DNA of 64,000 nt from Spirochaetota bacterium. Its GTDB lineage: Bacteria > Spirochaetota > UBA4802 > UBA5550. Positions 16,937 to 48,650 of the stretch are shown here, in pieces; positions within the stretch are counted from its first letter, which is position 1; every line of letters begins with the position of its first letter. The notes under the pieces were generated by a model that saw nothing but the letters and a program-made list of their open reading frames with translations, searched no databases and was not told the origin of the DNA. The stretch lies in the NCBI GenBank assembly GCA_017999915.1, contig JAGNKX010000002.1:186001-250000 (forward strand), read 5' to 3'. The translations under genes were made by a program, and so were the position numbers.

Positions 16937-18559
16937 TCAGACTCCTTCGCCGATGTTCCCGTTCCCGTTCCCGTTGCCGCCGTTCATGAGGTCACGGCGG
17001 CGCTGGCCGGCGATCTTCATGTATTCCAGCTTGTTCAGGGCGTCCACGAAGGAGTGGATCCCGGCGATGGACACGTCGATATTGGCGGAGCTGCCGAAGG
17101 CCTTGAGCTCCCTCCCCTCATACTCCTCCGACACGGTGCAGTGAACCTCTGCGACGGCGTCGGATCCGCCGGTGATGGCCACCAGGTTGAAAGAGGTGAT
17201 CTTTGCCGTGGTGCCGGTGATCCTCTTGACGGCCTTCACCCCGGCGTCGACGCCGCCGTTGCCGTGGGACACTTCAAAGGACTCGCGGTTTTCCTTCTTG
17301 TGATCCTTGATCGTCACCAGCGCCATGGGGGGCGAGAACATACCGGTCGATATCTGCACGTTCTCCACCTTGTAGCGCCGGTGCTCCTCGCCCTTGAACA
17401 GGGACTCGCCCACCAGGACCGTGAGGTCCTCGTCGAAGACCTCCTTCTTGCTGTCCGCCAGGGCCTTGAAGAGACGGAAGAACCGCTCGGTCTCATCCGT
17501 GTCGAGGTTGTAGCCGAGGGAGGCGAGACGGTCCAGGACCGCGTGGCGGCCCGAGTGCTTGCCCAGGACCAGGGAAGACTTGGAGATGCCCACGTCCTCG
17601 GGCCTCATGATCTCGTAGGTCATGGCATTTTTGAGTAGGCCGTCCTGGTGGATGCCCGACTCATGGGCGAAGGCGTTGCTGCCGACGACGGCCTTGTTGG
17701 GCTGCACCGACACGCCGGTGATGTTCGTCAGGAGCCGGCTCGTGGGAATGATCTGCTTCGTGTTGATGCCGGTATGCACCTTGAAAAGATCGCTCCTGGT
17801 CCTGATGGCCATGACGATCTCCTCCATCGAGGTGTTGCCGGCCCGCTCGCCGATGCCGTTGACCGTACACTCCACCTGGCGCGCCCCGGCCTCGATTGCC
17901 GCGAGGGAATTGGCCACGGCCAGGCCGAGGTCATTGTGGCAGTGGACCGATATGATGGCATTCGCTATGTTGGCCACATGGTCAAAAAGATACCTGATGA
18001 GACGGTGGAAGTCGGACGGGATCGCGTATCCCACCGTGTCGGGAATGTTGACCGTCACCGCCCCTGCCTCGATCACGGCCTGGACCATTTCCGCGAGGAA
18101 CACCGGGTCGCTCCGCGTTGCGTCCATGGGGGAGAACTCGACGTTTTTCGTATAGCTTTTAGCCTGCTTCACCGCCTCGACGGCCAGCTTCAGCACCTCC
18201 TCGCGGGTCTTCTTGAACTGGTGCTGGATATGGATGTCGGAGCTGGAAATGAAAGTGTGGATACGGGGATTCTCCGCCCCCTGGATGGCCTTCCAGGCGG
18301 TGTCGATATCCTTCTGGTTCGCCCGGGCCAGGCCTGCCACCTGAACGCCCTTGACCCTGTCGGCGATCATCTTCACCGCATCGAAATCGCCCTCTGAGGC
18401 GATGGGAAATCCCGCCTCGATCACGTCAACGCCGAGCTTGATGAGCTGGTCGGCGAAGATCATCTTTTCCTTCATATTCATGGTGAAACCGGGGGATTGT
18501 TCCCCGTCACGGAGGGTTGTATCGAATATTACGACTTTATCTTTATTTATTTCAGTCAT
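16937..18559 (-). CDS. leuA: 2-isopropylmalate synthase
   Basis: First committed step of leucine synthesis: condenses acetyl-CoA with 2-oxoisovalerate. 540 residues from ATG 18559, chosen for GGAG seven bases upstream; in-frame codons further upstream lack a ribosome site. The TIM-barrel catalytic part has DTTLRDGEQSPG (13-24) and SVHCHNDLG with the metal histidines. A LeuA dimer/regulatory domain with the leucine feedback site follows (about 390-520). The C-terminus ends in a Gly-Asn repeat (GGNGNGNGNIGEG), an odd flexible tail. A leader peptide and attenuator precede the gene. Confidence 0.93.
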   Translation of the reverse strand: MTEINKDKVVIFDTTLRDGEQSPGFTMNMKEKMIFADQLIKLGVDVIEAGFPIASEGDFDAVKMIADRVKGVQVAGLARANQKDIDTAWKAIQGAENPRIHTFISSSDIHIQHQFKKTREEVLKLAVEAVKQAKSYTKNVEFSPMDATRSDPVFLAEMVQAVIEAGAVTVNIPDTVGYAIPSDFHRLIRYLFDHVANIANAIISVHCHNDLGLAVANSLAAIEAGARQVECTVNGIGERAGNTSMEEIVMAIRTRSDLFKVHTGINTKQIIPTSRLLTNITGVSVQPNKAVVGSNAFAHESGIHQDGLLKNAMTYEIMRPEDVGISKSSLVLGKHSGRHAVLDRLASLGYNLDTDETERFFRLFKALADSKKEVFDEDLTVLVGESLFKGEEHRRYKVENVQISTGMFSPPMALVTIKDHKKENRESFEVSHGNGGVDAGVKAVKRITGTTAKITSFNLVAITGGSDAVAEVHCTVSEEYEGRELKAFGSSANIDVSIAGIHSFVDALNKLEYMKIAGQRRRDLMNGGNGNGNGNIGEGV

Positions 18560-18720
18560 GGTTTTTCTCCTTTTCGGGTAGTATGGTATTATATAGGATA
18601 CGATCCTCCCCAAGCAACAAGGGGCATAGACCCCGCCACCTCCCCGGATTCAGAACATCACCATTATAATCCATTCATATACCTGCCTGTGCTATCCGTT
18701 TTACAATCACATCATAACAT

Positions 18721-18748
18721 AAAAAAAGCCGCCACATTCTGTGACGGC
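18721..18748 (-). terminator. leuA attenuator (regulated terminator)
   Basis: On the minus strand GCCGTCAC (18741-18748), loop AGAAT, GTGGCGGC (18728-18735), then seven T (18721-18727). It lies between the leader peptide and leuA. Its 5' arm can instead pair with the end of the leader region at 18773-18780 and flanks. Confidence 0.85.
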
Positions 18749-18776
18749 TTTTATTGTTTCAGTTCTCAAGAAGGCA

Positions 18777-18863
18777 TCACAAAATATGGCCAGGGAGACT
18801 TTCCTCCAAGCTTAATAACAGACCGAGAAGCAGGTTTAGAAGTGATGCCATCATTTGTTTCAT
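18777..18863 (-). CDS. leuL: Leucine-rich leader peptide of the leuA attenuator
   Basis: 28 codons from ATG 18863 to TGA 18777-18779; 11 of 28 are leucine. The core reads ASLLNLLLGLLLSLEESL. Codons 5-8 contain GGCATCAC (region 1, 18842-18849), which pairs perfectly with GTGATGCC at the end of the peptide (region 2, 18773-18780). A ribosome waiting for Leu-tRNA on the run would cover region 1, free region 2 to pair with the terminator's 5' arm, and let leuA be transcribed. The ribosome site is weak (AGGATA about 15 bases upstream). No amino-acid family similarity is expected for such leaders. Confidence 0.85.
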   Translation of the reverse strand: MKQMMASLLNLLLGLLLSLEESLPGHIL

Positions 18864-18914
18864 CGTTACAACCGGCGTTATATCCTATAATTAAAATCGG
18901 AATCGCTTACAAAT

Positions 18915-18942
18915 AATATAGCACAATTTTCGAAATGGTCAA
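18915..18942 (-). promoter_or_regulatory. Predicted promoter of the leu leader
   Basis: TTGACC (18937-18942) and TATATT (18915-18920) on the minus strand, 16 bases apart. Transcription would begin near 18907, about 45 bases before the leader peptide start. Confidence 0.7.
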
Positions 18943-19233
18943 CAGTGTCAATAGAATTTTAATTTTTTTCCATTTACCGTCCAGCCAGTCCCGAAATGAT
19001 TAATACCTCTTGACTTTCTGCCTTATCATGTTCATCATTATTCCCGATGTCATACCATGGATCGCACATGAGGCATCATTCGGGCTTACGGCAGCATCGA
19101 CACCGGCGACTCCGAATTCGGCCTGGGACACGCCAAGATCGGCTCCATCCTGTTCAACATGGGCATCACCGGCCAGCGGCCCGGCGGCTTCAAACCACAA
19201 TAATCCAAGCCCCGCATGGGCCGGAGGAACGAC

Positions 19234-20148
19234 ATGGGATCTTTTTTTGCAAATACCGTTCTGTTCGGGGAAGATATCCTGAACCGTGTTCACATATTCG
19301 CGGGACCGTGGCTGGACGCGGCCATGGTGGGTGTGACGTCGCTGGGAAGCGAGATCTTCTACATGGCCGTGATCCCGGTGCTCTACTGGTGCTGGGACCG
19401 GCGGCGCGCCGCCTATATCTGCGCCGCCTATCTCACGGCCATGGCGGTCAACGATTCCATGAAATGCCTGTTCAATAATCCGCGGCCGGATCCGGCGCAT
19501 CTGCTTCCCGGCATACAGGAAATGGCATCACGGTACAGGCCCCGGGGCCCCGGTTTTCCCAGCGGCCATGCCCAGGGATCTGTCGCCTTCTGGGGGACCC
19601 TCGCGGTTATGACCCGGGGCGGGACAATGAAGGCGCTCTGCGCCCTGATGATAATCCTGGTATCCTACTCCCGCCTCTACCTGGCAGTGCACTACCTGGG
19701 AGATGTCCTCGGGGGGCTGGTCCTTGGAATACTCTGCCTCGCCGTGATCATACCCGCTGCGATCATCGCTGAAAAATATTATCGCTCCATTAGCCAGATT
19801 ATACTCATCACCCTGTTGATCATCATACCGATAACTATCTTCATTTTCGTAGCCGGAGATTATATGAACACCACCATGGGGGCGCTGTCGGGATTCATGG
19901 TCGGGGTCATTCTTGCTGAAGAGAAGATTCGCTTTAATCCATGGAACAGGCTCCCCATTCAGCTGGTGAAGATAGTTATCGGTATCAGTGTGTTGGGGGC
20001 GCTCCGGTTCGGATTGAAATATATAGTGCCCGAAGGTCTGGCTGCGGGATTTTTCCGGTACTGGTGCATCGGCTTCTGGTGCTCCTTCGGTGCACCTTTT
20101 GTTTTTTCGAAGTTCGCGGCCCTGCGGGGAGAGGAAAAGGCGCTCTGA
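19234..20148 (+). CDS. PAP2-family membrane phosphatase
   Basis: 304 residues from ATG 19234, chosen for GGAGG six bases before it; an upstream in-frame ATG at 19216 has none. The three acid-phosphatase motifs are complete: KCLFNNPRP (77-85), PSGH (109-112) and SRLYLAVHYLGD (145-156). Multiple membrane helices follow. The family removes phosphate from lipid substrates such as phosphatidate or undecaprenyl pyrophosphate, or from sphingoid-like bases; the substrate here is not evident. Its stop codon lies inside a copy of the GGGGTCAGAGCA repeat. Confidence 0.88.
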   Translation: MGSFFANTVLFGEDILNRVHIFAGPWLDAAMVGVTSLGSEIFYMAVIPVLYWCWDRRRAAYICAAYLTAMAVNDSMKCLFNNPRPDPAHLLPGIQEMASRYRPRGPGFPSGHAQGSVAFWGTLAVMTRGGTMKALCALMIILVSYSRLYLAVHYLGDVLGGLVLGILCLAVIIPAAIIAEKYYRSISQIILITLLIIIPITIFIFVAGDYMNTTMGALSGFMVGVILAEEKIRFNPWNRLPIQLVKIVIGISVLGALRFGLKYIVPEGLAAGFFRYWCIGFWCSFGAPFVFSKFAALRGEEKAL

Positions 20149-45244: not shown

Positions 45245-46240
<996 letters not shown>

Positions 46241-46253
46241 GATGAACTCCTTG

Positions 46254-46289
46254 TTGACCCCCCTGTCCCCCTGAGGGGGCATGGGTCAA
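46254..46289 (-). promoter_or_regulatory. Hairpin just before the ilvC ribosome site
   Basis: TTGACCC (46254-46260) and GGGTCAA (46283-46289) enclose CCCCC/GGGGG (46267-46271/46275-46279). The ribosome site AAGGAG follows about two bases after the hairpin in the transcript. It may stabilise or process the ilvC message. Confidence 0.5.
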
Positions 46290-46316
46290 TTTATAATATT
46301 TTTATTACTAATTCAA

Positions 46317-46448
46317 CCTCACCCGCGCTCCGCGCACCCTCTCCCATTAAACTCGGAAAAAAGGAGAGGGTTTCCGAGAAACGATATTCTATCCGCTCCC
46401 CCTCTCCTTTTTTCAATTCTTAATGGGAAAGGGGGCCGGGGGGTGAGG
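46317..46448. repeat. 132-bp palindromic repeat element between ilvN and ilvC (plain form)
   Basis: Ends CCTCACCC (46317-46324) and GGGTGAGG (46441-46448). Inside, CCCTCTCCCATTAA (46337-46350) pairs with TTAATGGGAAAGGG (46420-46433) with one mismatch, and AAAAAAGGAGAGGG (46357-46370) pairs perfectly with CCCTCTCCTTTTTT (46400-46413). The same element, carrying an extra hairpin module, is at 49764-49982. Confidence 0.75.
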
Positions 46449-46460
46449 TCAGATAATAGC

Positions 46461-46961
46461 CTACTCCTTCAACAGCGACACCCGTCCGGTGCGCATCAGC
46501 TCCCTGATGCCGTAGGGCTTCAACAGCTCGATAAAATTATGGATCTGGACCGGATCGCCCTTCACGCCCAGGGTGATGGTCTTCGGCGAGATATCGGCGA
46601 TATCCGCTTTGAAGATCTCGCCCAGCTGGTAGATCTCGGGTCGCTTGTTCGGCGGGGCGTTCACCTTCACCAGGACCAGCTCACGCTCCACCGTGGGAAG
46701 ATCCGTATGGTCGCTCACCTTGATGACGTCGATCAGCTTGTTCAGCTGCTTCTTGACCTGCTCGATGACCCGGTCGTCGCCGCGCGTCACGATGGTCATG
46801 ACCGATACGTCCTCCTGCTCAGTGGCGCTCACCGCCAGGGAATCGATGTTGTATCCGCGCGCGGAGAAAAGGCCGGCCACGCGGGCCAGGACGCCGAAGC
46901 GGTTCTCCACCTTGACCGATATCACGTATTGCTTCATGGTTTCATCGTTTGGCGCTGTCAT
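46461..46961 (-). CDS. ilvN: Acetolactate synthase small (regulatory) subunit
   Basis: 166 residues, full length, with an ACT domain at the front (KQYVISVKVENRFGVLARVAGLFSARGYNI) that binds valine for feedback control, and the second half typical of IlvH/IlvN. The start at 46961 (MTAPNDETMKQY) is three bases after the ilvB stop; an internal ATG at 46937 is the alternative. It partners the large subunit encoded upstream. Confidence 0.93.
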   Translation of the reverse strand: MTAPNDETMKQYVISVKVENRFGVLARVAGLFSARGYNIDSLAVSATEQEDVSVMTIVTRGDDRVIEQVKKQLNKLIDVIKVSDHTDLPTVERELVLVKVNAPPNKRPEIYQLGEIFKADIADISPKTITLGVKGDPVQIHNFIELLKPYGIRELMRTGRVSLLKE

Positions 46962-46964
46962 GGC

Positions 46965-48650
46965 TTACGCGAGCATCTCCCTCATGATGATCTCCTTGAA
47001 CGACTGCCCCGCCGGCACCATCGGGTAGACGTTCTCCTCGCGGGAAACGACAAAATCCATGATGATGGGGCGGTCGGTGATGGACAGGGCCCTCTGCAGG
47101 GCCGGTGCCACCTCCTCGTAGGTCCTGATCCGCATTCCCTCGGCGCCATAGGCCTCGGCAAGCTTTACAAAATCAGGCGCGAAATCGATGCAGGTGTGGC
47201 TGTAGCGTTTATCGAAGAAAAGCTGCTGCCACTGGCGCACCATGCCGAGGAAACCGTTGTTGAGGATGGCGATGATGACCGGCAGCCGGTGCTGCACCGC
47301 GACGATCAGCTCCTGGATGTTCATCTGTATCGAGCCGTCGCCGGCGATGTCGATGACGCGCTTGTCGGGCCGCGCCAGCTGAGCGCCGATGGCGGCGGGG
47401 AAGCCGTATCCCATGGTGCCCAGGCCGCCGGAGGAAATGAAGGTCCTCGGCTGGGTGTACTTGTAGAACTGCGCGGCCCACATCTGGTTCTGCCCCACCT
47501 CGGTGCAGATGATGGCGTCGCCCTTTGTCTGGCGGTAGATCTCCTCGACAACGAACTGCGGCTTGATCCGGTCATCGCCGTTCCGCTCATAGGTCAGCGG
47601 GTGCTCGCGCTTCAGCCTGTCGATCTCCGCGAGCCACTCGTCGATCTTCGGGGCCTTGACCTGCTCGATCATGGCGGCGAGGACCTGCCTGCAGTCGCCC
47701 ACGATGGGAACGTCAACCGCCACTGTCTTGCTGACCGACGCCGGATCGATGTCGATGTGTATGACCTTCGCGTTTGGAATGAAGTCCGAGATCTTCCCGG
47801 TGACGCGGTCGTCGAAGCGGGCGCCCACGGCGATCAGGAGGTCGGACTCGTTCACCGCGTGGTTGGCGTAATAGGTGCCGTGCATGCCCAGCATCTCCAG
47901 GGCGAGGCGGTCGGTCTCCGGATAGACCCCGAGGCCCAGGAGCGTCGTGGTGATCGGGATCTGTGTCTTTTTGACGAACTCCCGGAGCTCCTTCGAGGCA
48001 TTGGATATCACCACGCCCCCGCCGGCGTAGATCACGGGCCGCTTCGCGCTCTCGATGAGCTGGCACGCCTTCCTGATCTGGTTCGGATGGCCCTCGTACA
48101 CAGGCTTGTAGCTCCGTATATGCACGCTCTCCGGATAGGCGAACTTGTGCTCCCCCTTGGAGATGTCGACCGGGACGTCGATAAGGACAGGCCCGGGCCT
48201 GCCCGTTGATGCTATGTAGAAAGCTTCCTTAATAACGCGCGCAAGGTCCTTGATGTCCTGGACCAGGTAATTATGCTTGGTTATGGGACGGGTGATGCCG
48301 GTACTGTCGACTTCCTGGAAGGCATCGTTGCCGATCTGCTGCCTGGTCACCTGGCCGGTGAACACCACCAGGGGGACCGAGTCAAGGTGCGCCGTTGCGA
48401 TGCCGGTCACGCAGTTGGTCGCGCCGGGGCCGGAGGTGGCGATGACGACGCCGACCTTGCCGGAGGCCCGCGCGTACCCGTCGGCCGCGTGCACCGCCCC
48501 CTGCTCATGCCTGGTCAGAATGAACTTGAAGGGCGCGTTGTGCAGGGCGTGGAATATCGGAATGACCACGCCGCCCGGATAGCCGAACATGCACTCGACA
48601 TTCTCCTTTTTCAGGCATTCAACGATGATGTCCGCGCCTTTTATCTTCAC
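46965..48650 (-). CDS. ilvB: Acetolactate synthase large (catalytic) subunit
   Basis: TPP- and FAD-dependent enzyme that opens valine, isoleucine and leucine synthesis. 561 residues from a GTG start at 48650 with GGGAG about seven bases upstream. The TPP motif is [29 protein letters not shown], with the glutamate block FGYPGG...[21 protein letters not shown] at the front. Normal length and order. First gene of ilvB-ilvN-(repeat)-ilvC. Confidence 0.97.

Follow-up and report, generated by a model that had tools for sequence, protein, structure and literature searches.

A probable leucine leader-peptide attenuator before leuA, followed by a second conserved element, in an uncultured order of spirochaetes

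In the enteric leu operon, a leucine-rich leader, alternating RNA regions and a terminator precede leuA; its Rfam family is Leu_leader (RF00512). In Salmonella, according to the accessible part of the report, replacing CUA by CUG codons made the leu attenuator less sensitive, and codon rarity cannot by itself account for the codon bias of leaders in every operon (PMC1183508). The available portions of two further reports describe, in Actinobacteria, a LEU element with a pseudoknot in which the leucine run pairs with the leuA Shine-Dalgarno sequence (PMC1262725) and, in Staphylococcus, a leucine-rich attenuator peptide that controls branched-chain synthesis (PMC5794164). For spirochaetes, which were included in the screen concerned, the accessible excerpt places the ilvB (WRC-14-1) motif before ilvB in Leptospira only (PMC8632094). 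A literature search that took in spirochaetes and Leptospira, mostly among papers outside subscription, found no leu attenuator from a spirochaete.

Here we analysed a window of 64,000 nucleotides (the whole stretch of DNA, to which all coordinates refer). Its LeuA is 93-71% identical to LeuA on 17 contigs (L033-L049) of MAGs named as Spirochaetes, Spirochaetia or Spirochaetota bacterium, and the host, which the initial annotation had thought a possible spirochaete, is therefore a spirochaete. The features of this leuA and its leader region are, in the direction of transcription:

18942-18915, minus strand: candidate promoter, TTGACC-16-TATATT with TG before the -10 (sigma-70-like consensus scan, 10/12)
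18863-18777, minus strand: leucine leader peptide ORF, 28 codons, 11 Leu, ATG at 18863-18861 and TGA at 18779-18777 (read from the sequence)
18849-18842, minus strand: region 1, GGCATCAC (exact complement of the region 2 core)
18833-18813, minus strand: main control codons LLL-G-LLL, codons 11-17 (read from the sequence)
18788-18771, minus strand: region 2, core GTGATGCC at 18780-18773, containing the leader stop (RNAduplex with region 3)
18752-18740, minus strand: region 3, terminator 5' arm AAAAGCCGTCACA (sequence and alignment pair counts)
18736-18721, minus strand: region 4, terminator 3' arm plus seven T (sequence and fold)
18559-16937, minus strand: leuA, 2-isopropylmalate synthase (TIGR00973, 661.7 bits for a cut-off of 598.7; NF002086, 732 for a cut-off of 532)

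All the attenuator parts that were first described before leuA, i.e., the leader, the 1:2 helix, the 2:3 antiterminator and the 3:4 terminator, are present in the window. The annotated frame of 28 codons with 11 leucines and two runs of three can be read directly at 18863-18777 (MKQMMASLLNLLLGLLLSLEESLPGHIL), and the chance of at least 11 leucines in 28 residues at 10% leucine is P = 4e-5. Only one of the 11 leucine codons is CTA and, by eye, the first ATG has no well-placed Shine-Dalgarno sequence, an AGGA lying ~19 nt upstream. For the promoter claimed upstream of the leader, the consensus scan does recover the sigma-70-like site at 18942-18915, but this is no proof of function. Region 1 complements the core of region 2 exactly, as had been stated, and the 1:2 helix scores above shuffled sequences (z 3.3, p 0.003). 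The pairing proposed between region 2 with its flanks and the terminator 5' arm (region 3) corresponds to a duplex of -18.9 kcal/mol (RNAduplex), while regions 3 and 4 form the expected terminator, with a 13-pair stem (18752-18724), a loop of 3 and seven T ending at 18721, ~160 nt upstream of leuA. Folded separately, the terminator (18756-18721) reaches -18.4 kcal/mol and the antiterminator piece (18795-18737) -10.6 kcal/mol. Overall, three terminator-like sites were found in 18550-19050 vs. 0.2 expected in shuffles, two of which are the attenuator terminator stem and one the hairpin of a second element described below. The minimum free energy fold of 18870-18721 consists of helix 1:2 and the terminator, and RNA folded from 18800 on also gives the terminator; this is what one expects where timing and the ribosome set the outcome, and is not proof that they do.

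The best explanation of this locus is very probably ribosome-mediated transcription attenuation, with charged tRNA-Leu as the signal that gates leuA, and the earlier reading of leader-peptide attenuation is supported. Transcription would start before the leader, whose 28-codon peptide would be translated by a ribosome. With leucine plentiful, this ribosome would reach the TGA in region 2 and, because it would then mask region 2, the 3:4 terminator would form and transcription would stop near 18721. With charged tRNA-Leu scarce, the ribosome would stall on the leucine codons and mask region 1, leaving region 2 free to pair with region 3, so that the terminator would be blocked and leuA made. 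If the leader were not translated, 1:2 would form and the terminator would fold. As read from the sequence alone, region 1 (18849-18842) is followed by the LLL codons (18833-18813) and then by the stop (18779-18777) within region 2, and it is from such features that we infer translation, stalling, leucine response and read-through for the window attenuator.

We used an order sample of 46 genomes and a phylum sample of 392. A covariance model (R1) that spans leader stop to terminator and was built from 36 of the leader loci, which therefore match it by construction, matched 37 of the 46 order genomes at E<=0.001, and the same 37 carry an orthologous leuA (32 at best E<=7.2e-217 and five more at best E<=3.1e-165). 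The nine order genomes without an orthologous leuA are G012, G017 and G212, which are 72, 73 and 71% complete, G029 and G150, which have no close leuA, and four members of family f3 (G021, G026, G030 and G038). A first comparison found a leucine-rich leader and then a terminator in 33 of 34 distinct spirochaete leuA upstream regions, the 34th (L093, from another Spirochaetes MAG, LeuA 51% identical) being without such a leader; L028 and L049 had been left out because the anchor motif failed. Adding G013 (the genome of L028), G009 and G001 as L113-L115 brought the number of leaders to 36, L049 being a leuA truncated by the end of its contig, with coordinates that fit G001:C51 and the other half on C73 (L114), and G222 (L225) supplied the 37th. 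The leucine-rich leader and the terminator are thus found in all 37 genomes with an orthologous leuA, and a locus that kept leuA while losing the leucine run or the hairpins was looked for among these 37 and not found. This holds for the orthologues, but not for every leuA considered, L093 being without a leader and the leader before the type-2 leuA of G026 being leucine-poor. Since the leaders were picked by leucine-richness and not blind, their leucine content alone is no independent test; a similar rule applied outside the order returned some leucine-rich small ORF in 14 of 60 loci. The leader stop is TGA in 37/37, inside the GTGATG of region 2, the terminator arm begins 22-30 nt past it (33 leaders), and the distance from the terminator to the leuA DTTLRDGEQ motif is 55-369 nt, mostly 130-280 nt (33 loci).

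This constant presence of a terminator bears on a translation-level alternative, under which the leader would act, like the actinobacterial LEU element, on leuA initiation and not on the terminator. The LEU element does set a leucine leader before leuA without an obvious intrinsic terminator, as far as the accessible text of PMC1262725 goes, and the short leaders of L088, L092 and L112 likewise show no obvious intrinsic terminator by eye. However, in 33/33 of the present loci (and, by reading, in the other four) the leader is followed by an intrinsic terminator whose arms are conserved and covary, and we consider translation-level control very improbable here.

The pairings that transcription attenuation would require could be followed across relatives in an alignment of 36 rows (A1), covariation of the hairpins having been proposed at the outset as a check. 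For the terminator helix, 96.8% of 432 cells are paired (shuffles 92.6%) and 26 cells carry double changes, vs. 5.7 in shuffles; for the antiterminator, 83.4% of 428 cells are paired (80.1% shuffled, 28-52% when slid), with 13 double-change cells vs. 5.5. Both helices keep pairing through double changes. Within the antiterminator, three pairs show a double change and there are 12 further pair types, both counts lying at the shuffled mean; two core pairs are invariant and thus uninformative, and the two outermost pairs are broken in roughly half of the genomes. The 2:3 duplex averages -18.3 kcal/mol with its own partner, -14.2 when swapped between species and -9.7 when shuffled, the own pairing beating the median swap in 34/36 rows; the corresponding values for 1:2 are -20.8, -18.1 and -16.0, with 24/36. 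A stricter test of the 1:2 helix gave p<0.05 in 23/37 and p<0.01 in 11/37, was not significant in 14/37, and yielded a combined p of 6e-25 on related rows. Because the rows are related, these pairing statistics overstate independence.

Codon usage sets the leaders apart as well: CTA accounts for 23.4% of 256 leucine codons in 33 leaders, vs. 1.1% of 1099 in leuA of the same 33 genomes and 1.8% of 2947 when long ORFs at these loci are counted. CTA is more frequent in the leader than in leuA in 31/33 genomes, and its share in leaders ranges by family from 12% (f1) to 50% (f7). This 13-21 fold enrichment is an independent test of whether rare CUA codons are favoured in leu leaders. Together with the conserved antiterminator, the conserved CTA bias argues against a constitutive terminator, one that would belong to an upstream gene or to a small RNA, with the leucine-rich ORF as a bystander. 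Moreover, the next long ORF upstream of the leader (19216-20148) lies on the opposite strand. Nothing specific favours a constitutive terminator beyond the start signal of the window leader, which is weak by eye, and we give this explanation almost no credence.

Beyond the orthologous loci, some attenuator-like arrangements were encountered. At E<=0.01, R1 matched 63 of the 392 phylum genomes, namely the 37 order genomes (E<=2.5e-5), G021 (0.0025, the match lying at its own attenuator) and 25 outside the order (best 5.1e-5). The G021 leuA is type-2 (NF002991/PRK03739, 635.5 bits, cut-off 455), and those of G030 and G026 are similar to it by eye. G021 (L151) and G030 (L152) each have their own leucine leader and terminator, built on other stem sequences than those of the orthologous loci, with 2:3 pairings of -14.7 kcal/mol (p 0.017 vs. 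shuffles) and -16.6 kcal/mol (0 of 300), respectively. G026 keeps the hairpins (2:3 pairing -13.7 kcal/mol, p 0.007) but has few leucines in its leader, and for G038, the fourth of these f3 genomes, the stretch examined ends short of the gene start.

Eighteen of the 25 out-of-order matches (E 5.1e-5 to 0.01) were inspected by eye, G237, G238, G259, G335, G351, G369 and G391 being left aside, and outside genus g34 they showed no amino-acid-rich leader. A second match in the window's own genome (C5, E 0.011) and extra matches in the order genomes G018 and G031 were set aside, with no leucine leader seen by eye. In seven genomes of g34 (family f15, another spirochaete lineage; L164 and L237-L242), a Met/Cys-rich leader (e.g., MKTIIVMNKMFCLMQMCMFNNDGCK) is followed by a terminator. 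The one such downstream gene examined, that of L164, encodes an O-acetylhomoserine sulfhydrylase (metY-like), and this leader is a candidate methionine leader-peptide attenuator.

Covariance-model searches with Rfam gave no match to the window leader region at the gathering score. In 18500-19050, 17 matches were obtained up to E 5 and Leu_leader was not one of them, the T-box leader was matched neither at the gathering score nor up to E 5 in the same interval, and no credible family could be assigned to the leader at gathering or permissive thresholds. A search for leaders at the ilvBNC-like genes of the window and at a leuC-like gene elsewhere recognised no Ile-Val-Leu-rich leader. The ilvB-ilvN-ilvC-like genes lie at 45245-48650 (minus strand), their upstream region being without a recognisable leader peptide.

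Between the terminator and leuA we came upon a second conserved element, which was unexpected and is brought to light here. It lies inside the interval that the initial annotation gave to the attenuator (18559-18942), in addition to the parts named there:

18647-18593, minus strand: element 2, conserved in the order (match of model R2 at G000:C2:204593-204647; the model includes the window locus)
18627-18589, minus strand: tiny ORF of element 2 in the window's genus, MPLVAWGGSYPI

In the window, element 2 consists of a strong Shine-Dalgarno sequence, GGAGGTG (18643-18637), and a hairpin GGGG/CCCC (18634-18621) that holds an ATG, followed by GCTTGG. The usual layout in relatives, by eye, is GGAGGTG or nearly so, ~5-9 nt, a start codon within GGG...CCC, and then CTN. 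Element 2 is found in 30 of the 37 orthologous loci (29/36 by the search rule, plus L225). Another locus, L041, lacks the stem but keeps the Shine-Dalgarno sequence, the ATG and a peptide resembling RKL, and the element is absent in L016, L019, L035, L036, L038 and L113, where spacers are mostly short. A model (R2) built from 29 of the element-2 loci matched 28 of the 392 phylum genomes at E<=0.01, all of this order and once each, the best match outside having E 0.013, and the pattern was not found in 60 loci scanned outside the order.

Extension of the inner stem amounts to 50 pairs (22 distinct loops) vs. 29.0 (sd 4.3) when 3' halves are swapped, with 0 of 5000 swaps as high. Outside the window's genus (25 loci), most ORFs follow the pattern M-x(0-2)-[FIV]-P-x-x-L, with Q or R in place of P in family f7 and L041; the third positions of the conserved codons are free, and conservation ends at the leucine codon. 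This codon is CTT in 13 ORFs, CTA in nine, CTC in two, TTA then CTA in L013, and never CTG, several of the CTA cases coming from close relatives. In the window's genus, the peptide is instead MPLVAW or MPLFAW; L048 has TTG, L034 lacks a usable start, and a CTT occurs in another frame with nearly the same spacing along the RNA (by eye). The CT pairs with the Shine-Dalgarno sequence above tail-shuffled controls (mean 2.71 vs. 1.47; 26/30), and selection may act on the peptide, the RNA or both. Folding element 2 with the leuA start gave no common picture in the three loci considered.

It is tempting to extend the attenuator into a two-stage control, in which the hairpin-locked mini-ORF of element 2 would add a second leucine- or ribosome-dependent step. 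Its occurrence once per genome in this order only (R2, E<=0.01), the covariation of its hairpin in comparison with swaps, and a leucine codon that is CTN in 24 of 25 ORFs and at which conservation stops all point that way. Against it stand the six orthologous loci that lack the element and the stemless L041, the different peptide of the window's genus, the TTG of L048 and the lack of a usable start in L034, the relatedness behind several CTA cases, and the prospect that the conserved CT instead serves to pair with the Shine-Dalgarno sequence. On balance we hold two-stage control to be possible but rather unlikely. That the leuA leader is an attenuator followed, after read-through by RNA polymerase, by a hairpin-locked tiny ORF of an unreported kind, with its leucine codon as a second checkpoint for leucine or the ribosome in leuA expression, is a yet more doubtful proposal.

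Outside the spirochaetes, MAGs named as Planctomycetota, Phycisphaerae and Sedimentisphaerales (L088, L092 and L112) have, before leuA, a short leader that ends in LLLLRP or LLLLRL; a hairpin of the GCGCC type lies close to its stop, and no T run was seen immediately behind the hairpin (by eye). These are perhaps another type of leuA leader.

Compared with described systems, the attenuator resembles the leu operon of E. coli and Salmonella (leuL) in its leucine-rich leader, alternating RNA regions and terminator before leuA. Unlike in the enteric operon, the leader stop here lies inside region 2, element 2 follows the terminator, the ilvBNC-like genes and the leuC-like gene are without such a leader, and Leu_leader is not matched. 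The initial likening to the enteric leu operon thus stands for the mechanism but not for the gene order, nor does it extend to Rfam, whose Leu_leader is not among the matches. The use of rare CUA codons is shared with the Salmonella leu leader, as described in the available part of PMC1183508. With the LEU element, going by the portion of PMC1262725 at hand, the locus has in common a uORF with a leucine run upstream of leuA, but in a comparison by layout it differs in its intrinsic terminator well upstream of leuA. The leucine-rich attenuator peptide of Staphylococcus, from another phylum, is similar by its description in the accessible part of PMC5794164. Like the present leader, the Leptospira ilvB motif is a spirochaetal cis RNA that precedes a branched-chain gene, but in the accessible excerpt of PMC8632094 it is not presented as a leucine leader attenuator. 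Finally, leuA loci of Syntrophales, Aquificota and Thermodesulfobacteriota show, by eye, a leucine leader and then a terminator-like hairpin, although with stem sequences other than those found here. Given these leucine leaders in other phyla, the mechanism is broad, and the spirochaete attenuator is a further case and no new kind: conserved and mechanistically ordinary, in a lineage for which we found no report. It would extend textbook leader-peptide attenuation to an uncultured spirochaete order, in which the switch and its gene occur together in 37 of 37 genomes.
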